DNA of 64,000 nt from Blastocystis hominis (taxonomy: Eukaryota; Sar; Bigyra; Opalinata; Blastocystidae). Positions 19,658 through 63,064 of the stretch are shown piece after piece. The stretch's first letter is position 1; each line of letters starts with the position of its first letter. The stretch covers positions 372,001-436,000 of the forward strand of contig NW_013171817.1 in assembly GCF_000151665.1 (NCBI RefSeq), written 5' to 3'. The notes below the pieces were generated by a model. That model had not been told where the DNA came from. It searched no databases and was given only the letters and a program-made list of their open reading frames with translations. Position numbers and translations under genes: made by a program.

Positions 19658-20331
19658 ATGCAGCGCACTTGTATTCGTTTTGGTGAACAAAATACTTGCT
19701 AGTTGCTCGTAGTTTTTCATTCTTATCGGATTTGGCAAAAAGAGGGATCGTTCTTCCTAAGGTGTCAAAACCTGTTGGTAACTATGTCAGCATTCTCCGA
19801 ACAGGAAACATGCTGTATTTGTGTATTATCGGTACGTTTTCTTCTGATGTTGTAGCGGGTGCTTTACCGATGAAGGAGGATGGGTCATTTTACAAAGGAA
19901 AGGTATGTGAAGAAATTAGGAATGAACTGTGAAGGTTGGAGCTGATATCGACGAGAAAACTGGATACGATGCTTCAAGAAGGGCGGGAATGGTGTTGGCA
20001 GCGAACATTTTGTGTAATCATTGTGATTCGGGTCGATAATAGCTGAGATCTCGGACCCGACCAAAGTTCGTGTTTGCAAAGTAGGTACCCTCGTTTTTTT
20101 CTCCCCATAGATAACTGGATTTGTGAATGCATGTCCTACGTTTGAGAAAGTACCTGCGGTTGTGAACGGCGCTTCAGATGTTTTAGTCGAGATTTTCGGT
20201 GAGAATGGCAAGCACATATCCATTTCTTGAAAGATTCTGTTTCTTAACGCCAGGCTCGTTCTGCAGTGGGTGTAGCGACATTACCTCTGGGAGTTCCTGT
20301 TGAAGTGGAGGCAATTGTAGAGATTTTGTGA
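19658..20331 (+). CDS. RidA (YjgF/YER057c/UK114) family protein with an organellar presequence
   Basis: RidA-type enamine/imine deaminase-like protein of the subfamily with the HARSAVG motif. The start MQRTFARSFSFLSDLAKRG looks like an organelle presequence and needs a 32-nt intron after codon four. It is followed by SKPVGNYVSILRTGNMLYLSG, GKVGADIDEKTGYDASRRAG, ITGFVNACPTFEKVPAVVNG, ASDVLVEIFGENGKHARSA and VGVATLPLGVPVEVEAI, at about family length. The GT-AG introns are 29-33 nt, but the last intron runs ATATCC...CCAG and only that removal restores GENGKHARSAVG. TGA is encoded at 20329-20331, then TG, AAA, TGTTTGAT. RidA clears reactive 2-aminoacrylate-like intermediates; an organellar role is inferred from the presequence. 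Confidence 0.88.
20216..20253 (+). other. Apparent U12-type AT-AG intron in the RidA gene
   Basis: A 38-nt intron starts ATATCCATTT, matches the minor-spliceosome 5' site ATATCCTTT at eight of nine bases, contains TTTCTTAAC close to the U12 branch consensus TTCCTTAAC, and ends CCAG. Removal keeps frame and rebuilds the conserved GKHARSAVG. The only in-frame GT-AG alternative (67 nt from GTGAGAATGG) would delete that motif. Confidence 0.65.
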
Positions 20332-30212: not shown

Positions 30213-33200
30213 ATGTCGTGGTTTTGGAAACGACGACCTCTCTCCGAAAGCCTAGATTGGAAACGAGCAGAAGACCAAATATTGAGTATATTTTGTTTAC
30301 CACCACTATTGCTTAGTCGTTGGAACTGTCACAAAGTCTCCAACAAACAAGGACGCTCATGAAAACAATGTCGATGACTTAGCCAAGTTTCTGAAGGAGC
30401 AGTATAAGGACGAATTTTTAATTTTCGACTTAACGTTTGTATTCGTTTCATTTCTGATTCTTAGTTCTCTCTTAGGAGAAATGGCTCAATTCTATGGTCA
30501 TACGGTTCGATTCACATTGAGCAACATTTCTCTTGACTCCGTTTTCCGTATCCTCTATGCTATCGACTATTGGAACAATAACCCTAAACACTGTGGTATG
30601 AATTATTGAAAATTGCGACACCCTAGTTGTATTACACGATGAAAAATATTCATTCATGTCTGAGTTGATCATGACTTGTTACCATCTTCGTAGAGCTATC
30701 GATCAGGGACAAGCCTCTGCCTTTGAAATTCTAGAATACTACATTTCAATGCGATACACAGCTGGAGACTTGGATCACATTCCTACTCTTTTGACCCGGT
30801 TTGTGAATGAATTCCAAATTAGTCTTTCTGTCGACAGCTCGGCGGAGTACAAAGGTCCCTACTTACTCACCCAAGTGGCCTGCAACTATTTCTACAAGTC
30901 AAATGGCGAAGAATTTGATGTTTGTCTTTAGAGCACCAATTCATCTCTAGAATCCCCCGATTCTTGAAGTTTACAAGAGTCAGAATCTGATCTATTCGTC
31001 GATAGGAAACGAATCGAACATTATTTGGGACGATGAGCCAGGCTACTTTCTTATCCGGTTGAATCAAGAGATCTTTGGAGATATGACCTTTGCGTGTTAT
31101 GAGCAGCTGGATGATGGCAAACGGCGGCTTTTGTGGAAATATTGGGTGCATACCGCGTTTTTACCGAAGTCAAACGATTCGGAAGCGACGGATCAAGAAT
31201 CTGTTGGGATAAGGAATGGGTTTCATGTGTAGTGTATTTGTACAGTGTATAATAACAAAATTGATATCGTGAATAACTCTATGGTGAATGCCTTGTGTCT
31301 TAGTTATGGAATGAAGCGATGCACGACTCACATCACACAGTTCCAAGACGTTTCTTTCTTTCTTAAGAACGTGGACGCACGAATTCAAGGTTTAGTGGAT
31401 ATTGTGAAGCACCACGGAGTGATCGTGAATGGAAATAGCTTCAAGGCGTTGCGATCAGCCAGCCGAGACGAGAATATCGTGAAGCTGTCATTACAGCTGT
31501 CGATTAACGATCCGAAGAAAGCCACAAAAATGTTGAATGACGGCGTTTTGGATCCTTTGAAGGTGTATGTGTACTCCCGCAGTATTTATTTTATTCATGT
31601 TTTATGAACTGTAGAGCCTACGATTGATAGTAGTCCGAAGGCTGTAATGCCTATAGAGGAAAATAGCCGTCTGGTGTCTCCTCGCCAGGAAGTACGCAAT
31701 CCGCCCAGTTCGATTCTGTCAATCAACATTAACAATTTGGATGAGAATGACTTGGAGAATATTGACGTGGACACTTTGGTAAACATCAAGGGATTGGATA
31801 CGACTACATCTCTGAAGGATCTTCCGTTGGACAGCGTGAAGGATATCGATATCGGTTTGGAAGATTTTAGCTCGATCAACTCGAAGGACATTTGCGCGAT
31901 CTGTCACCAACACAAGCCAAACGAGGTCGATCAGTTAATAAAATGCACGCACTGCGGGAACAAATACCATACAACTTGCTTGAAGTTGCCGCCCATTCCA
32001 TACTCCGTTCTGATTCCACTCGAAAAGAGAAAGCATGACAACTATGTTAAAGACAATTATGGCAAATGGTTGTGTTCAAACTGCAAGAAAAAGGAACCTT
32101 CGACCTCTGGCATGCAATCTCCCAGTATCCAGTCTCCTGCTACTTCTCCCAAGAGGCCACATATCGGTATCAGTCCGATTCCTTTCTTCAGACCTTCAGG
32201 AAAGACTACGACACCACTTACTCCCAGTTCACCAAAGCTCACACCCTCTTTGCCGGCGTTGGTGCCATCTCCAAACAGTCAACTTTCTCCTTCGCCTATT
32301 TCTTCACCTCGTCCTGTTCAACCTGTTATAAAGAAGGCAGCAGGGGCGGATCTTTCCAATGGTGGAGTGATCGTTGGCACGCAAGATTATTTGTGGCTAC
32401 AAAAGCAAATGAAGATAGGAAAAGTTCCAGAAATTCCTTCTGTCCCGATTCCTAAGCTAGAGACACAGTTGGTACCTATTTATACAGACAGCGAGGCATC
32501 ATCAGAGGATGAAGCGGCATCTACAACAGCATCTACAACAGCATCTACAACAGCATCTACAACAGCATCTACAACAGCGCCAAAGCAGACAAAAAAGAAG
32601 CACATCAAGACCGAAAAACTGAGATCATTTTTGCAAAGCTTATTGGTAATGCCGAATGATACTACAGATTTTGATGAATTCATCGTGAAAGTAACAGATT
32701 TAGTGAAACAGAATAGCCATCCATCCGATTTGGATCTCGTATACGCAGTTCCTGTGTTTTTGTTGAGATCTATGTTACAAACCGCGGCTATCTCTCCATC
32801 ATCGATTCCGATGAGTGGAATTTCGAAGATTGATGGAAAGGAAGTGACTCGAATAGCAGATCATCCTAAATTAAAGCCTTATTTTGACCGTTTACAGAAA
32901 AGTGAGAAGGTAGAAGATATTAAAAAAGATATGACTGGGGCTGGAATTGATGATTCCCTGCTTGATAAAGATCCCAATACAGTCGTTCTGTTAGACAATT
33001 ACAATGTATCCTATGTGCAATTCGAGAAAACTTCTGTCTCTAAACCGCAGGAAGATGAGGTGAGCACGAGTGTAATTCGTCTGAAAGCTACGGATCACCC
33101 GCTCTTTAGGAAGTATTTCAATATGCTAAAGCGAAATATTCCTAGAACAGATGTGGAGAAAAACATGATTAGTTGTGGACTAGATCCATCTGTTTTGAAT

Positions 33201-36200
33201 AAGCCGAATGAATTAGTGGAGTATGTGCCCCCTCCTCCTCTTCCTACGCAAGAGTCTACAGATAAGGTGATTTCTAAGCCTGAAATAGAACCTATAAAGT
33301 CTGTGGAGCCAAAGAAAGTATCTACAAAGAAGATAGTGAAGTTATGCGAACATCCTGTATATTCTAAATACTTCAACATGTTGAAAAAGGGAGTTCCCGA
33401 GGTAGCTGTTCGTCACTCGATGATGCGAGACAAGGTTGATAGTTCTATACTGGATCGCGATCCTAATGAAGAAATTGAGATCGAAATCGAAATTGAAGTA
33501 GAAGAAGGAGCAACAGCAGCAACACCATCAAAGAAGAAAGTAAAGTTATGTGAACATCCTGTATATTCTAAATACTTTAACATGTTGAAAAAGGGAGTTC
33601 CCGAGGTAGCTGTTCGTCACTCGATGATGCGAGACAAGGTCGATAGTTCTATATTAGACAGAGATCCTAATGAAGAAATCGAAATTGAAGTAGAAGAAGG
33701 AGCAACAACAACACCATCAAAGAAGAAAGTAAAGTTATGCGAACATCCTGTATATTCTAAATACTTCAACATGTTGAAAAAGGGAGTTCCCGAGGTAGCT
33801 GTTCGCCACTCGATGATGCGAGACAAGGTTGATAGTTCTATTCTGGATCGAGATCCTAATGAAGAAATTGAACTCGAAACCGAAGAAGAAGGAGCAACAA
33901 CAACACCATCAAAGAATGAAGAAGAAGGAGTAACAACAACACCATCAAAGAAGATAGTGAAGTTATGTGAACATCCTGTATATTCTAAATACTTTAACAT
34001 GTTGAAAAAGGGAGTTCCCGAAGTAGCTGTTCGTCATTCAATGATGCGAGACAAAGTTGACAGCTCTATTCTGGATCGTGATCCTAATGAAGAAATTGAA
34101 CTCGAAACCGAAGAAGAAGGAACAACAGCAACACCATCAAAGAAGAAAGTAAAGTTATGCGAACATCCTGTATATTCTAAATACTTCAACATGCTGAAAA
34201 AGGGAGTTCCCGAGGTAGCTGTTCGTCATTCAATGATGCGAGATAAAGTTGATAGTTCTATTCTGGACAGAGATCCTAATGAAGAAATCGAAATTGAAGA
34301 AGAAGGAGCAACACCATCAAAGAAGAAAGTAAAACTATGCGAACATCCTGTATATTCTAAATACTTCAACATGTTAAAGAAAGGATTACCTGAAACAGCT
34401 GTTCGTCACTCAATGATGCGAGACAAAGTCGATAGTTCTATATTAGACAGAGATCCTAATGAAGAAATCGAAATTGAAGTAGAAGAAGGAGCAACAACAA
34501 CACCAACAAAGAAGAAAGTAAAGTTATGCGAACATCCTGTATATTCTAAATACTTCAACATGTTAAAGAAAGGATTACCTGAAACAGCTGTTCGTCATTC
34601 GATGATGCGAGATAAGGTTGACAGCTCTATATTGGATCGCGATCCTAATGAAGAAATCGAAATTGAAGAAGAAGGAGCAACAACAACACCATCAAAGAAG
34701 AAAGTGAAGTTATGCGAACATCCTGTATATTCTAAATACTTCAACATGTTAAAGAAAGGATTACCTGAAACAGCTGTTCGTCATTCAATGATGCGAGATA
34801 AGGTTGACAGCTCTATTCTGGACAGAGATCCTAATGAAGAAATCGAAATTGAAGAAGAAGGAGCAGCGCCATCAAAGAAGAAAGTGAAACTGTGCGAACA
34901 TCCTGTATATTCTAAATACTTCAACATGTTGAAAAAGGGATTACCTGAAACAGCTGTTCGTCATTCAATGATGCGAGACAAAGTCGATAGTTCTATATTG
35001 GATCGAGATCCTAATGAAGAAATTGAACTCGAAACCGAAGAAGAAGGAGTAACTACAACACCATCAAAGAAAGAAACTAAGATGATCAAATGTATTGATC
35101 ATCCAAAATATGGAAAGTACTTTAAAATGCTTTATGATGGTATTCCTCAACGATTTGTTGAGGAAAAAATGAAGGAAGACAATGTTGATATATCGATTTT
35201 GGAAAATAATGCTACGACTATGATTGAAGTAGATGTTAAAGATATTCAGGAAAAGCCACAAGTTACGTTGAAAAAACGAAAAGTGAAATTGTGCGAACAT
35301 CCTGTATATTCTAAATACTTCAATATGTTGAAGAAAGGATTGCCTGAAGTTTCCGTCCGCCATTCGATGATGCGGGATGGAGTAGACACAACTTTTATAA
35401 CGCATGATCCTAATGAAGAAATCGAAATTGAAGAAGAAGATGAAACAGCAGCAACACCATCAAAGAAGAAAGTAAAACTGTGCGAACATCCTGTATATTC
35501 TAAATACTTCAACATGTTGAAAAAGGGATTGCCTGAAACAGCTGTTCGTCATTCAATGATGCGAGATAAGGTTGATAGTTCTATTCTGGATCGAGATCCT
35601 AATGAAGAAATCGAAATTGAAGTAGAAGATGAAACAGCAGCAACACCATCAAAGAAGAAAGTGAAGTTATGCGAACATCCTGTATATTCTAAATACTTCA
35701 ACATGTTAAAGAAAGGATTACCTGAAACAGCTGTTCGTCATTCGATGATGCGAGATAAGGTTGACAGCTCTATATTGGATCGCGATCCTAATGAAGAAAT
35801 CGAAATTGAAGAAGAAGGAGCAACAACAACACCATCAAAGAAGAAAGTGAAGTTATGCGAACATCCTGTATATTCTAAATACTTCAACATGTTAAAGAAA
35901 GGATTACCTGAAACAGCTGTTCGTCATTCAATGATGCGAGATAAAGTCGATAGTTCTATATTGGATCGAGATCCTAATGAAGAAATCGAAATTGAAGAAG
36001 AAGGAGCGGCACCACCACCACCACCATCAAAGAATGAAGAAGAAGAAAAGCCTCGAAATGACGAAATCAAAGTTACTCCTAGAACACACAAAGTGGCTTT
36101 GAAGGAAGCTCCAGAATACAAACAGTTCTTTGTTATGCGTGAGCGTGGCGTTCCTATTGTCCAAATCAAGCGATTCATGAAGAAAAACAATCTAGATCCA

Positions 36201-37839
36201 TCGATAATCGATAGAGATCCACAGTCGCTCATTGAAGTGGAAGTAGATTTCATTTAGTCTTTACTCAATCTAGGTGTCCTCAGCTCCTCTTTACGATCAT
36301 CCAGTTTATGCCAAATACTTCGCCATGCTGAAAGGAGGCCATTCGAAGAAGGAGATTGAGATGATTATGAAAGGAGATGGAGAGAATGCTAATGTAATTC
36401 TGCTGTGTTTGGTGTAAAGTATAGGTTCTCAACTATGATCCGAAAACGGATTGGCCTGTCGAGACGAAAAAGAAACAAAACCAAAGACGCAAAACAACGC
36501 GAAAGAAGATTCACTGGCACCCAGTCAAGCTTTCTGAGGAGGATGTATACCATGTCTTTATAGATTCATTTGTAGTTGAAGAAGAGTTACTGGAACTCAC
36601 TGGAGACACTCACATTCCTTCAAGAAGATGATGCTCTCATGACTGAGTTCGAAAATATCTTTGTCAACAATCCAGATGAAAATAAGCCTGTGGAGGCTAA
36701 GCCGGTCGTCGAGAAGAAGCCTCGATTTGTTAGTCTCTTGGTTAATTTCATTATAATAGGCGACCTTCCTGGACGGAAAGCGTTCTACAAACGTTGGCAT
36801 TTCAATCTCCAAAATCAAGGTTGAACCTTCAGTTTTGCGTCGTTCTCTTCTATTACTAGAGCCGGAACTCGCGGATATCTCTCTCTCCACTCTTGAGTCG
36901 CTTAATGTTGCTCTTCCCACGCCAGAAGATCTCAAAGCTTCTTCTGCTTATACTGGAGATCCCGAGAAACTGGCTCCATCCGACCGTTTTATTTACGAAA
37001 TGGCGAAACTCCCTCGCTGTCGAAACAAGCTGGATTGTTTGTCTCTGAAAATGACGATTACGTCAAGTATTGAAGACATCAAGCAGCGTGTCGGATTTAT
37101 CACCCAGGCTTGTTCTGAGTTGCGTACAAGTCAGCGATTCCGCACACTGATTGAGTGTGTGCTGATGATTGGTAATACTCTAAACGTGCAGAACGAAGAA
37201 GCCTCTCGTATGGTGATTGTTCAGGCGTTCCAACTGGACTCGTTGCTGAACCTAACGAATACCAAGGGATTCGATAAGAAAACATCGTTATTCATGTATC
37301 TGGAGAAGCTTTTGGTGCTAAAACATCCCGATGTGTTCGATGTACAGATGGAGTTGAAGAGCTTGCCACAGGCAGCTCGCGAAAGCTTCGAAAGCATTCA
37401 AAAGGATCAGGATACGCTGAGCAGACAGCTGGAGTCGGTGGCAAGTGAGCTGAAGAGTATAGAAAACGAAGTGTCGTCTGCAGAAGGTGAAGCAAAGCAA
37501 GAGCTGGAAGAGGCTGCGAAACGATTGGGAGATTTCGCTTCAACGGCGCAAGTTCAGATCGTGGATTTGCGGAACGAAGTGGACAATGTGAAGGAGACGT
37601 ATATGGATTTCTTGCAGTATTTCTGCCAGGACACGACGCTCAAGTCCGACGAGTTTTTCGCATCATTAAACGGATTTTTCGACGAGTTGCAATCGTTACA
37701 CGCAAAGATGACAGAGCAGAGAGAGCGTATGCAGCGAAAGAAGGAGAAGGAAAAACAGAAAGAGCTGTTATCGAAGAAGCAAAGTACTGCGACCAGTCCA
37801 GTTTCAAGTAAATCAGAATCATCTTCCAGTAGTGTGTAA
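30213..37839 (+). CDS. Giant formin: degenerate PTEN-C2, PHD finger, 18 CCDC53-like repeats, FH2
   Basis: Actin nucleator/elongator of about 2,400 residues. The start MSWFWKRRPLSESLDWKR leads, through introns of 30-33 nt, into a PTEN-type phosphatase fold (DDLAKFLKEQYKDEFLIFDL, FRILYAIDYWNNNPKHCVVL). The catalytic HCxxGxxR loop is replaced by LHDEKYSFM, so it should be inactive, as in plant class II formins. A C2 domain follows (GDMTFACYEQL, WVHTAFLPKS). After a helical region comes a PHD finger (CAICHQHK, CTHCGNKYHTTC, CSNCKKKE), then 18 repeats of the type KYFNMLKKGVPEVAV. FH2 has KIHWHPVKL, SYWNSL, LPRCRNKLDCLSLK and VLMIGNTLN. The FH1 is tiny (PPPPPSK). The encoded TAA is at 37837-37839. 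Confidence 0.88.
32518..32578 (+). repeat. 12-bp tandem repeat in the formin
   Basis: Five copies of acaacagcatct encode a run of TTAS units in a flexible linker between the PHD finger and the repeat array. Confidence 0.9.
33326..36030 (+). repeat. Array of about 190-bp coding repeats in the formin
   Basis: Thirteen near-identical copies of a unit with core LCEHPVYSKYFNMLKKG, a helix RHSMMRDKVDSSILDRDP, an acidic patch EEIEIE and a TTPSKKK linker, plus one diverged copy (CIDHPKYGKYFKMLYDG) at about 35080. Two older units precede and two follow the array, giving 18 in the protein. Nucleotide identity is very high and differs mostly in the linkers. Two variants, GVPEVAV and GLPETAV, occupy the first and second halves of the array. 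This points to recent expansion by unequal exchange. The unit resembles the repeat of WASH subunit CCDC53. Confidence 0.9.
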
Positions 37840-55902: not shown

Positions 55903-58900
55903 ATGAGTAGCAACCTTCAATCGTCACCCCAAGATGATGATGAGATCCAAAAGCAAATAGAGCTGGAACAGCAGCAACAGCTTGATGAAGCTCTTATCAT
56001 CCGTGCCCGTAAGTGGCAACAGAAGAGAGTGAAGAAATTTCACCAATCCGAGAAGGGAACGATTGTTAGTATGCAAACTATCGAAATGCCTGTGGAACAC
56101 CTTCGAAAGATTGTGCGCGATCACGGCGACATGTCGTCTCGTAAATTCAGAAATGATAAGCGTATCTACTTGGGCGCTTTGAAGTAATCTTCGTTGTTGC
56201 ACCTTATCGATTAGATTTATGCCTCACGCAATCTTGAAGCTGCTGGAGAATATGCCCATGCCATGGGAGCAGATCCGCGATGTCAAGGTGCTTTATCACA
56301 TCACAGGTGCTATAACCCTGGTCAACGAGGTTCCGATGGTGATCGAGCCCATCTTCATTGCGCAGTGGTCGACGATGTGGATGATGATGCGGCGAGAGAA
56401 GCGTGATCGTCGAAACTTCAAGCGAATGCGATTCCCTCCCTTCGATGATGAAGAGCCTCCTCTCGACTACGGAGACAACATCCTGGATGTGGAGCCGCTC
56501 TCCGCCATCCAGATGCCCGACCTCTCTCCCGAGGACGACGCAGCGGTCATCGATTGGTTCTACGACCACAAAGCGCTCAGCGAAGACACCAAATACACAA
56601 ACGGTCCCTCCTACAAGAAGTGGCATCTCTCGATCGCGATCATGGGGAATCTGTATCGACTGAGCAACCAGTTAGTGACCGACATTACAGACCAAAACTA
56701 CTTCTATCTCTTCGACAAGAACTCGTTTTTCACTGCGAAGGCGCTCAACCTGGCGATTCCTGGCGGTCCGAAGTACGAGCCTTTGGACCGCGATGTGGAG
56801 GTGGATGAGGACTGGAACGAGTTCAACGATGTGAACAAGATCATCATTCGAAACCCGATCCGAACCGAGTACAAGATCGCCTATCCCTACATGTACAATG
56901 AGAGAACGAAGCACGTTTCCATCCCGTTCTATCACTACGCGGCGTCGGCGGTGATCAAGACCAACGATCTCGACCAGCCTGCCTTCTACTACGATCCGAT
57001 CATCAACCCGATTCCCGCCTTCGAGTCTGCGAACGCGCACAGCGTCGTGGTACGTTCTGCACAGCCTGCGTCATGGATAGGAAGTCGATTTGGACGAGGA
57101 CATCGTTCTCGATGAGGCGGATCTTCCCTTCCTGAGCGACGAATCTCTCTTCCTCCGTACTCTCCTCCCTTCCAGTTTCTCACTTCTAGCGACCACGGCG
57201 GAAGGCATCGCGCTGTACAACGCGCCGCGCCCGTTCAATCTGCGGTCCGGACGCACACGCCGCTGCTTCGACGTTCCGCTGGTGAACTCGTGGTACCGCG
57301 AGCACGTGTCCTACACGCTCCCGCTGAAGGTGAAGGTCAGCTACCAGAAGCTGCTGAAGGGCTGGGTGATGAACCAGCTGCACCGCAAGCCGCCAAAGGC
57401 GCAGAAGCGCCGCGACCTGCTGCGGTCGTTGCGGTCGACGAAGTTCTTCAAGACGACGGAGGAGGACTGGGTGGAAGCCGGGTTGCAGGTGGTGCGGCAG
57501 GGCTTCAACACGCTGAATCTGCTGATTCACCGCCGCGGCCTGAACTATTTGCATCTGGACTACAACTTCAACCTGAAGCCGATCAAGGTGCTGACGACCA
57601 AGGAGCGAAAGAAGTCCCGCTTCGGAAACGCCTTCCACTTGACGCGCGAGATTCTGCGTCTGACCAAAATCATCGTCGACTGCCACGTGCAGTTCCGACT
57701 GGGGAACATCGATGCGTTCCAGCTGGCCGACGGTCTGCAGTACGCGTTCGCGCACATCGGGCAGCTGACCGGAATGTACCGCTACAAGTACCGCCTGATG
57801 CGCCAAGTCCGCATGTGCAAGGACTTGAAGCACGTGATCTACTATCGATTCAACACCGGCGCGGTCGGCAAGGGCCCGGGCTGCGGCTTCTGGTTCCCCG
57901 GCTGGCGCGTGTGGCTGTTCTTCCTGCGCGGAATCGTCCCGCTGCTGGAGCGGTGGCTGCAGAACTTGCTGGCTCGTCAGTTCGAGGGTCGACACAGCGA
58001 CGCGACGCCGCACACGGTGACCAAGCAGCGCGTGGAGAGTCAGTACGACTTGGAGCTGCGCGCTGCGGTGCTGCAGGACATCCAGGATATGATGCCGGAG
58101 GGCATTAAGAACAACAAGAGCAAGACGATCGCGCAGCATCTGAGCGAGGCGTGGCGGTGCTGGAAGGCGAACATTCCTTGGAAGGTGCCCGGCTTGCCGC
58201 CAGCGATCGAGTCGATGATCCAGCGCTACGTGAAGGCGAAAGCGGACTGGTGGACCAACGTGGCGCACTACAACCGAGAGCGAATCCGCCGCGGAGCGAC
58301 CGTGGACAAGACGGTGTGCAAGAAGAACGTGGGGCGACTGACGCGTCTGTTCCTGAAGAAGGAGCAGGAGCGCCAGCAGAACTTTTTGAAGGACGGTCCG
58401 TACATCAGCGAGGAAGAAGGAGTCGCAATCTACAAGACCGCCGTGAACTGGCTGGAGTCTCGGCACTTCTCGCCGATCCCGTTCCCGCCCACGCAGTACA
58501 AACACGACACAAAGATGCTGACGCTGGCGCTGGAGCGACTCCGCGAGAACTACAACAGCAACAGCCGAATGAACCAGAGCCAGCGAGAGGAAATGGGTCT
58601 GATCGAGCAGAGCTACGATAATCCGCACGAGACGCTGCAGCAGATCAAGCGCTATCTGCTCACGCAGCAAGTCTTCAAGGACGTGAAGCTGCAGTTCTTG
58701 GACCTGCACAGCCATTTGTTGCCCGTGTACGAGATTGATCCGCTGGAGAAGATCACGGACGCCTACCTGGATCAGTATCTGTGGTACGAGGCCGATCGCC
58801 GCAAGCTGTTCCCGAACTGGATCAAGCCTTCGGACGAGGAGCCGCAGCCCTATTTGGTGTACAAGTTCTGCCAGGGCGTGAACAATCTGACCGATTTCTG

Positions 58901-61004
58901 GTCGTGCGAGAATGGGGAATGCAATGTGTTGATGGAGGCGACGCTGGACAAGGTGTACGAGAAGATCGACCCGATTCTGCTGAGCCGCTTGCTGCGTCTG
59001 ATCGTGGACCACAACATTGCGGACTACATGAGCAAGAAGAGCAACGTGAAGATCACCTACAAAGATATGGAGCACGTGAATCACTACGGTCTGATCACCG
59101 GACTGCAGTTCGCAGGCTTCATTTTCCAGTACTACGGACTGATTCTGGACCTGCTGCTTCTGGGAATGCACCGAGCCTCCGAGCTGGCCGGTCCCCCCAC
59201 AATGCCGAACAAATACTGCTCCTTCCACGACACGGAGACGGAGATTCGCCATCCCATCCGTCTCTACACTCGCTACATCGACAAAGTGTACATCGTGTTC
59301 CGCTTCACCGCGGAGGAAGCGAAGGATCTGATCCAGCAGTACCTCACAGAGCACCCCGATCCCAACAACGAAAACATCGTGGGCTACAACAACAAGAAGT
59401 GCTGGCCGCGCGACAGCCGCATGCGTCTCATGAAGCACGACGTGAATCTGGGCCGCGCCGTGTTCTGGAACATGAAGTCGCGCATTCCTCGCTCGCTGAC
59501 GACGTTCGAGTGGGACAAGAGCTTCGTGTGCGTGTACTCGCAGGACAACCCCAACTTCCTCTTCGACATGTGCGGATTCGAGGTCCGGATTCTCCCGAAG
59601 TGCCGCATGCCGCGCGAGCAGCAAGTGCAGGCGCGCGACGGCATCTGGCCGCTGCAGAACGAAAGCACGAAGGAGCAGACCGCCGTGGCGTTCCTGCGCG
59701 TCACCGAAGAGGAGCAGCGGATGTTCGAGAACCACATTCGCCAGGTGCTGATGAGTTCGGGCGGCACGACGTTCACGAAGGTGGCGAACAAGTGGAACAC
59801 GGCGCTGATCAACTTCATGGCGTACTTCCGCGAGGCGGTGATCAACACGGAGGAGATGCTGGACATTCTGGTGAAGTGCGAGAACAAGATCCAGACGCGA
59901 ATCAAGATCGGACTGAACAGTAAGATGCCGTCGCGTTTCCCGCCCGTGGTCTTCTACACGCCGAAGGAGCTGGGCGGACTGGGCATGATGTCGATGGGAC
60001 ACATCCTGATTCCGCAGAGCGACCTCACCTACTCGCGCCAGACCTCCACGGGAATCACGCACTTCCGAAACGGAATGTCCCACGAGGAGGACCAGCTGAT
60101 TCCCAACCTGTCGCGCTACATCACGCCGTGGCTGTCGGAGATCGAGTCGTCGCAAGAAGCGTGGGCGGAGTACACGTCCAAGAAGGCGGAGGCCAACGCG
60201 ATCAACCGCCGGTTGACGTACGAGGATCTGAGCGAGAGCTGGGACCGCGGTCTTCCGCGAATCAGCACGCTGTTCCAGAAGGACCGGCACACGCTGGCGT
60301 ACGATAAGGGCTACCGCGTGCGTCTGGTGTTCAAGCAGTACACGCTGCTGCGCTACAATCAGATGTGGTGGACGCACCAGAGCCACGATGGTCGCCTGTG
60401 GAACCTGAACAACTACCGCACGGATGTGATCCAGCACCTCGGCGGCGTGGAGAACATTCTGGAGCACACGCTGTTCAAGGCGACGGGCTTCCCGACCTGG
60501 GAGGGACTGTTCTGGGAGAAGGCTTCGGGCTTCGAGGAGCAGATGAAGTACAAGAAGCTGACGAACGCGCAGCGCAGCGGTCTGAACCAGATTCCGAATC
60601 GTCGGTTCACGCTGTGGTGGTCTCCGACGATCAACCGAGCGAACGTGTACGTGGGTTTCCAGGTGCAGCTGGACCTGACGGGTATCTTCATGCACGGAAA
60701 GATCCCCACGCTGAAGATCAGTCTGATCCAGATCTTCCGATCGCACTTGTGGCAGAAGATCCACGAGAACATCGTGATCGATCTCTGCCAGGTGTTCGAC
60801 CAGGTGCTGGACGATCTGGCGATCAGCTCGGTCGAGAAGATGACGATCCATCCGCGCAAGTCGTACAAGATGAACAGCTCGAGTTCGGACGTGGTGATCA
60901 ACGCGTCCTATCGCTGGAACACCTGCAAGCCCTCGCTTCTCCACGACGACCACGACGAGTTCACCGACCAGCCCACGCAGCAGTACTGGCTGGACGTCCA
61001 GCTG

Positions 61005-61039
<35 letters not shown>

Positions 61040-63064
61040 CTACTGCCGCGCCAAGTTCCTGGACTACATCTCCGACTCGATGACCACGTACGCCTCCTCG
61101 ACCGGAGTGTTGCTGGGCGTGGATCTCGCGTACAACATGTACTCCGGCTTCGGCCACTACATTCCGGGATCGAAGCTGCTGCTGCAGCGCGCGATGGCGC
61201 GAATCATGAAGGCGAACCCCTCGCTGAGCGTGCTGCGCGACCGAATTCGCAGCGGCCTGCAGCTGTACTCGTCGGAGCCGACGGAGCCGATGCTGAGCAG
61301 CCAGAACTACCAGGAGCTGTTCAGCAACCAGGTGGTGTGGATTGTGGACGACGAGAACGTGTATCGTGTGACGATGCACGCCACACACGAGGGAAACACC
61401 ACCACCAAGCCCATGAACGGCTTCGTCTCCGTGTTCAATCCTCGCTCCGGCCAGCTCTTCCTCAAGGTCATCCACACGTCGGTCTGGACGGGACAGAAGC
61501 GTCTGACGCAGCTGGCCAAGTGGAAGACGGCCGAAGAGATCGCTGCGATCATGCACAGCACGCCGGTGGAGGAGCAGCCGAAGCAGATCATCGTGACGCG
61601 CAAGAACTTGATGGACGCGATGCAGGGCATGCTGGTCGATTTCCCGAACACGGTGCTGAAGACGTCGGAGATGCAGCTTCCGTTCGCTGCGCTGGGCAAG
61701 GTGGAGAAGATCAGCGACCACGTGCTCAAAGCCACGGGTCCGCGCAACGATCTTTTCAATCTCTACGACGACTGGCTGGAGACGATTTCGTCGTACACCG
61801 CGTTCTCGCGTCTGATCCTGATTCTCCGCGCCATCCGCTTGAACCCCGTGCAGGCCGCGGCCATTTTGCGCCCCACGGCGGACACGATCACGCAGCCGCA
61901 CCACGTGTGGCCGACGTTCACCGCGGAGCAGTGGATCGAAGTGGAGCACAACCTCACCGACATGATTCTGGCGTACTACAGCAAGAACAACAACGTGTCG
62001 GTGACGTCGCTCACGCAGAGCGAGATCCGCGACATCATTCTGGGCATGCCGATCGCGCCGCCCTCGCAGCAGCGCCAGCAGATGGCGGAGATCGAGTCGC
62101 AGGACCGCGACCAGAGCCAGATGGTCTCGGTGACCACGCGCACCACCAACGTGTTCGGCGAGGAGATGACCTCCACCACCACCTCGCAGTACGAGCAGCA
62201 GACCTTCTCGTCGCGTGCGGACTGGCGCGTCCGCGCGATCTCCACCGCCAACCTGCCTCTGCGTGCGCAGAACCTCCACGTGGCCACCAGTCTGGACAGC
62301 GAGAACGCTTACGTGCTCCCATCCAACCTCTTCAAGCAGTTCGTCTGCATCGCCGACCTCCGCACGCAGATCTGCGGTCTGCTGTACGGCGTGTCGCTCC
62401 CGGACGACCCGCACACGATGGAGGTGCGTCTGATCGTGCTGCCGCCGCAGATGGGCTCGCAGATGGCGGTCAAGATCCCCGACCAGCTCCCGCAGCACGA
62501 GCTGCTGGAGGGCCTGGAGCCGCTGGGGTGGATCCACACGCAGGCGCGCGAGCTGCACGCGCTGTCGTCGCGCGACGTCTACACACACTCGCACATGATG
62601 GACACGAATCCGTCGTGGGACGGGAAGAAGACGGCGATCATCACGTGCTCGTTCATTCCGGGCTCCGTCTCCGTGGCGGGCTACAACATCACGAAGGAGG
62701 GCTACGACTGGGGCCGGCTGTCGAAGGACCAGGGCGCGAACACGACGGGGTTCGACGAGAACACGATGTTCCACACGTGCTCGGTGCTGTTTAGCGACAA
62801 GTTTTTGGGAAGCTTTTTGGTGCCCGCGGAGAACAGCTGGAATTACAACTTCCGGGGAAGCCAGTTCCGAGCCAACGATCCGTACGACGTGGTTCCGGAT
62901 GTGCCGAAGGAGTACTACGATCCGGTAGGAGAGGGAAGAGGGATGGGGTTAATGGGTAGGTGCATCGCCCGGAGCATTTCAAGAACTTCTGTAACATCGA
63001 GCAGGACGGGCCGCAGGGCATCGAGCAAGAGAATGTAATGGAGCGGGAGGATGAGTTCAATTAA
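55903..63064 (+). CDS. PRPF8: Pre-mRNA-processing-splicing factor 8
   Basis: Core U5 snRNP protein at the heart of both major and minor spliceosomes, about 2,350 residues. The start [16 protein letters not shown] leads to [10 protein letters not shown], then a 31-nt intron and [40 protein letters not shown] and the long N-terminal, reverse-transcriptase-like ([39 protein letters not shown]), endonuclease-like and RNase H-like regions follow at high identity to human PRPF8. The C-terminal Jab1/MPN domain ([20 protein letters not shown]) ends with [13 protein letters not shown] after a 35-nt intron. The second intron (57049-57079) is exactly 31 nt. Only three introns interrupt 7 kb. The codons are GC-rich. 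TAA is encoded at 63062-63064. Confidence 0.98.

Follow-up and report, generated by a model that had tools for sequence, protein, structure and literature searches.

Whether a short non-GT segment in a Blastocystis hominis gene is removed by the minor spliceosome is the question raised by a 64,000-nt stretch of contig NW_013171817.1 (positions 372,001 to 436,000; hereafter the window, in whose numbering positions are given). The gene belongs to the RidA/YjgF family, and when the 38-nt segment at 20216-20253 (+) is retained its frame reads GKHISIS and then a stop. An initial annotation of the window had proposed that this segment is a U12-type (minor) intron with AT-AG ends. Our analysis indicates that it is very probably a spliceosomal intron of the minor, or U12, type and of subtype AT-AG (A-type), a reading based on the sequence signals, on the minor-spliceosome genes found in the genome and on a second well-supported minor intron. 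The features discussed are collected in Table 1.

The letters of the segment are ATATCCATTTCTTGAAAGATTCTGTTTCTTAACGCCAG, flanked by CAC (His) and GCT (Ala), and both its coordinates and its letters had been given exactly. Removing it together with four GT-AG introns (33, 32, 29 and 30 nt) gives a protein that ends ...VEIFGENGKHARSAVGVATLPLGVPVEVEAIVEIL-stop; the C-terminal end of the spliced RidA/YjgF protein, with the same five introns removed, is ...FGENGKHARSAVGVATLPLGVPVEVEAIVEIL. We enumerated excisions no shorter than 20 nt that start with GT, GC, AT or GA at 20141-20249, end in AG no later than 20299 and leave the frame open to the end. Thirty-two in-frame excisions span the break and just one, 20216-20253, restores GKHARSAVG, as the initial annotation had claimed. 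The PF01042 score rises from 28.4 bits for the truncated protein to 56.4 bits after removal of the segment (cut-off 27.3), and that for PF14588 from 56.8 to 61.5 bits (cut-off 35), which places the spliced protein in the RidA/YjgF family; against NCBIfam TIGR00004 it scores 43.6 bits, under the cut-off of 106.25. When the spliced protein is aligned with 14 of 120 listed matches (15 sequences in all; 4003 proteins lay above threshold), residues S128, P136, V141, E142, E144 and E148, all encoded downstream of the intron, are invariant.

The same listing bears on the suggestion that a longer U2-type GT-AG intron is removed instead, leaving a protein without part of the conserved block. It does contain in-frame GT-AG excisions, including a pair 68 nt in length (20186-20253 and 20199-20266), whereas the 67-nt alternative named previously has no counterpart of that length. 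Each member of the pair deletes conserved residues (VEIFGENGKH or GENGKHARSA) and has roughly double the length of the four listed GT-AG introns (29-33 nt), and we regard this explanation as scarcely credible. It is also very improbable that there is no intron at all and that the gene is broken or carries an assembly insertion, with translation ending after GKHISIS. The stop within the retained segment would fit such a defect, but once the segment is removed exactly, all that lies downstream is in frame and conserved. The best match of the spliced protein among those listed, P0001 of Blastocystis sp. NMH (WA588_004948; 61% over the whole query), reads GKHISPIHNRS... where the spliced protein has GKHARSAVG; at the protein level, it follows GKHIS and then goes astray, as if a gene caller had missed the same donor. 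To judge from this comparison, the public NMH RidA model is likely mis-annotated, having apparently been read into the same minor intron. The RidA intron thus suggests why automatic gene models fail on Blastocystis minor introns. P0001 additionally has 10 extra residues at the site of the 32-nt GT-AG intron.

Table 1. Locations of the RidA gene, its introns and splice signals, further minor-intron candidates and minor-spliceosome genes (plain numbers, window; C numbers, contigs of the assembly)
Feature	Location	Strand	Length (nt)	Remarks
RidA/YjgF family gene (PF14588, PF01042)	19658..20331	+		start 19658 placed by eye from P0001 N-terminus MQRT...
Putative first intron	19677-19702	+	26	placed by eye from MQRT... 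of Blastocystis NMH P0001
GT-AG intron	19823..19855	+	33	from exon joining
GT-AG intron	19903..19934	+	32	from exon joining
GT-AG intron	20014..20042	+	29	from exon joining
GT-AG intron	20081..20110	+	30	from exon joining
Probable U12-type AT-AG intron	20216..20253	+	38	phase 0
Minor-type 5' splice site ATATCCATT	20216..20224	+		from sequence; one mismatch, at +7
Branch site TTTCTTAAC	20240..20248	+		presumed branch adenosine 20247
AT-AC candidate, dephospho-CoA kinase gene	C3:82423-82469		47	TTTCTTAAC branch; 6 nt after branch A; strong
GT-AC candidate, MPN-like gene	C3:109198-109236		39	8 nt after branch A; weaker
U12 gene	C6:173891-174036			64.6 bits (Rfam cut-off 53)
U6atac gene	C4:154865-154981	-		61.6 bits (Rfam cut-off 33)
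U11 gene	C2:1061533-1061659			49.5 bits (Rfam cut-off 39)
U4atac match	C1:522013-522142			below cut-off
CENATAC/CCDC84 stretch (PF14968)	C40:93523-93795			62.5 bits; contains one TAG
CENATAC/CCDC84 stretch (PF14968)	C40:92588-92791			44.4 bits

The minor 5' splice site consensus is RTATCCTTT (RTATCCTT) and that of the minor branch site is TTCCTTAAC. The branch site of the RidA intron departs from the latter at one position, where T replaces C and the pairing with U12 is kept as G-U. The two features that define U12-type introns in the consulted part of PMC3584512, the 5' splice site and the branch site, are therefore both present, with one mismatch each relative to the consensuses above. This bears out the resemblance that the initial annotation had noted, and its statement that the other introns are GT-AG without U12 signals holds by eye for the four listed GT-AG introns of the gene. 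A strict pattern of donor, branch and acceptor, composed after the RidA intron had been seen, occurs once in the window, compared with 0.075 occurrences expected from 40 dinucleotide shuffles, and three times in the window plus 200 kb of contig (C3:1-200000; 264 kb). Over the same 264 kb, permuted donors (n=29) gave a mean of 0.38 occurrences and a maximum of 2, and permuted branch sites (n=60) a mean of 0.62 and a maximum of 4. As 4 of the 60 permuted branch patterns reach at least three occurrences, motif rarity alone is only moderate evidence; the case for the intron is carried by the restoration of the protein.

Profile searches for minor small nuclear RNAs (snRNAs) and proteins covered the same 18.7-Mb, 40-contig assembly and 14 control genomes. 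Genes for U12, U6atac and U11 were found above their cut-offs, the U6atac gene being the only one of 13 U6atac matches to pass. At E <= 10 the U12, U6atac, U11 and U4atac searches gave matches in 7, 11, 3 and 11 of the 14 control genomes respectively, none above cut-off. The initial annotation had proposed looking for these four snRNAs; the U4atac match is below its cut-off, yet it pairs with U6atac. Its segment GUCCUUAUCG is perfectly complementary to U6atac CGAUAAGGAC, and relative to the two Rfam consensuses there is a compensated change, from CCUUgUC to CCUUAUC in U4atac and from GACAAGG to GAUAAGG in U6atac. The predicted pairing amounts to -27.1 kcal/mol for stem II, and stem I also pairs (-8.8 kcal/mol). 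A search of viral and prokaryote contigs for relatives of U6atac returned 0 matches.

Minor-specific proteins are represented by the 25K domain and CENATAC. The 25K ubiquitin-like domain (PF18036) scored 60.9 bits, was found in none of the 14 controls and matches the PDB U11/U12-25K chain (E 1.2e-08). Two stretches matched CENATAC/CCDC84 above the cut-off of 25.3 bits, again with no counterpart in the 14 controls; the TAG inside the higher-scoring stretch is perhaps part of an intron. The initial annotation had also named the 48K protein, which was not found: the sole PF05253 zinc finger match in the genome (42.1 bits, on C2; one of the 14 controls also exceeded the cut-off) lies in an open reading frame (ORF) that also encodes the CCCH finger of TRM13, and the ORF after it has a TRM13 methyltransferase domain (98 bits). 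These domains mark a tRNA methyltransferase, and the match was therefore dropped as evidence. The CHHC finger of this TRM13 gene (C2 excerpt positions 1261-2461, +) matches zf-U11-48K, so that PF05253 can mislead as a U11-48K marker. As for the working minor spliceosome that the intron had been said to imply, the snRNA genes, 25K and CENATAC are present, whereas the expression of these genes and the role of CENATAC in this Blastocystis are what we infer.

Further minor-type introns were sought in C3:1-200000 and the window. The scan for ATATCC/GTATCC introns suggested in the initial annotation yielded a second, well-supported intron of 47 nt with AT-AC ends and a weaker third of 39 nt with GT-AC ends. 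When the former is taken out along with four GT-AG introns (30, 31, 32 and 31 nt), the product is a dephospho-CoA kinase that scores 164 bits against TIGR00152 (cut-off 65.55) and 160 bits against PF01121 (cut-off 27). At the protein level, the junction is crossed without a break by two Blastocystis sequences, P0121 of strain DL (64%, covering 65% of the query) and P0128 of Blastoise (49%, covering 99%). The third candidate, in a gene that we take to be MPN/Rpn8-like, has less support, since by eye a 21-nt GT-AG excision likewise keeps the frame; no match to a Pfam family was obtained with its fragment of 53 residues. Distances from branch to acceptor are 6, 6 and 8 nt in the three candidates, and mixed ends occur in two of the three. 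A looser pattern gave 15 distinct matches, of which these three were examined closely and the other 12 by automatic frame checks only. The automatic open-frame filter failed the true RidA intron, whose 90-nt flanks enter other introns, and it was not used to reject matches. A still looser pattern gave dozens of matches in the window and C3:1-200000, from which no further intron was picked by eye.

Several observations weigh against the U12-type reading of the RidA segment. The intron ends in CCAG, and its presumed branch A lies 6 nt before this end (or 7 nt, should the other A serve instead), as close to the 3' site as the initial annotation had placed it. The canonical introns described in the consulted part of PMC3584512, with which the RidA intron shares near-consensus 5' splice and branch sites, usually have AT-AC or GT-AG ends, AT-AG being disfavoured, and a branch-to-acceptor optimum of 11-13 nt. 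AT-AG is thus a disfavoured combination outside the usual ends, which are usual rather than defining, and 6 nt falls well under the optimum, which is likewise not defining. The U4atac match reached only 42 bits (cut-off 53; E 6e-5), and below-cut-off U4atac matches at E <= 10 were seen in 11 of the 14 control genomes. PDCD7/59K was not found in the genome, in a search that gave no match in any control either. Pairing between TTTCTTAAC and U12 with a bulged A is predicted at -7.9 kcal/mol, and the energies of the three candidates (-7.9, -4.7 and -4.0 kcal/mol) are not separated from those of GT-AG introns in the same genes (-1.9 to -10.2 kcal/mol). The RidA donor is predicted to form only 3 bp with the 5' end of this genome's U11 (-2.3 kcal/mol); predicted U11 pairing of the three candidate donors is -2.3, -2.3 and -7.5 kcal/mol, weak in two of the three. 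Finally, the donor-binding segment of U6atac is UUGAGCCGAGAGAAGG rather than the Rfam consensus AUGAAAGGAGAGAAGG (GCC for AAG), a change that presumably, in the register known from other organisms, costs the contacts with +6 to +8 of the donor. At all three donors, the genome's own U6atac is predicted to pair less stably than the consensus (-5.0/-5.6, -1.4/-3.6 and -4.6/-5.5 kcal/mol), although the loss at the RidA donor, the first of these, is only slight. U11 offers no clear compensation in the predictions, which counts against a donor choice led by U11.

Part of this evidence would also suit an intron that is real but of a rare U2-type AT-AG kind, removed by the major spliceosome; Blastocystis major introns also occur with GC and GA donors. 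The AT-AG combination and the short branch distance are atypical of minor introns, and the predicted U11 pairing is weak. A near-consensus minor donor and branch nevertheless occur together here, by eye in none of the four listed GT-AG introns of the gene, minor snRNAs are present in the genome and AT donors are typical of minor introns in this lineage, such that we consider removal by the major spliceosome improbable. Within the U12-type reading, a minor spliceosome with relaxed rules is a tentative proposal, possible but doubtful: it would accept acceptors 6-8 nt past the branch A, mix ends freely (AT-AG, AT-AC, GT-AC), use a U6atac that has given up the consensus pairing to +6 to +8 and choose the donor by contacts other than the known ones. 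No description of the U6atac variant was found in the consulted main-text parts of the literature on Blastocystis minor introns. The altered U6atac and the short spacing are a lead rather than a finding, drawn from three introns of one genome. If both hold genome-wide, the lineage would test the minimal size of minor introns and which snRNA contacts are dispensable.

Under the U12-type reading, recognition would be by U11 at the donor (ATATCC) and by U12 at the branch site (TTTCTTAAC), after which the U4atac/U6atac.U5 tri-snRNP (small nuclear ribonucleoprotein) would join, probably aided by CENATAC. Attack on the donor by adenosine 20247 would follow, and exon ligation at CAC-GCT would yield full-length RidA; both this junction and the branch nucleotide are predictions from the sequence.

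Minor introns are already known in Blastocystis, and the RidA intron adds an AT-AG member. In ST1, 346 U12-type introns have been reported along with the full set of four snRNAs and seven specific proteins, and U12-type introns and components are also identifiable in ST7 (PMC5608401). These introns resemble the RidA intron in lineage (by protein similarity), length, AT donor and minor snRNAs. The consulted part of PMC10639083 reports 253 putative minor introns in ST1, 49% of them in phase 0; their mean length is slightly below 42 bp (median 39 bp), which is the lowest average in its dataset, from which introns of <30 bp were excluded; 11 of 12 aligned ST1 minor introns were lost in B. hominis. 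Most of those in ST1 are AT-AC (196 of 253), whereas the RidA intron ends in AG. The initial description of 38 nt as remarkably short for a minor intron therefore stands across eukaryotes but not within Blastocystis, where, given the ST1 median, the RidA intron is of ordinary size with a less usual end. Human A-type (AT-AN) minor introns include AT-AG and depend on CENATAC, according to the consulted part of PMC8280824. They share the AT donor and AG acceptor with the RidA intron, and this genome has a CENATAC-like gene; the RidA intron is far shorter, and the CENATAC dependence is known from human cells and may apply here. In Thalassiosira pseudonana, a weak AT-AG minor-intron candidate has been mentioned, the evidence for it being rated very poor because U12 snRNAs had not been found (PMC2846911, consulted in part).

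Elsewhere in the window, an ORF of 1985 residues at 57081-63038 (+) encodes Prp8, a core protein of both spliceosomes. The top match of its residues 1-500 is labelled Haematococcus lacustris (66%), followed by two NMH proteins at 88% along the full stretch; an ENA protein shows 100% identity across 87%. The NMH RidA model and an NMH Prp8 model (WA588_004960) probably lie on one contig, with the neighbourhood conserved. The Blastocystis polyadenylation/stop motif TGTTTGTT (PMC5608401, consulted in part) is the commonest of its 28 permutations, with 23 occurrences in the window (median 7) and 80 in C3:1-200000 (median 20). An ORF at 31608-37839 (+) carries many near-identical HPVYSKYFNMLKKG repeats; we take its start to be zinc-finger-like and the next ORF to be formin-like.
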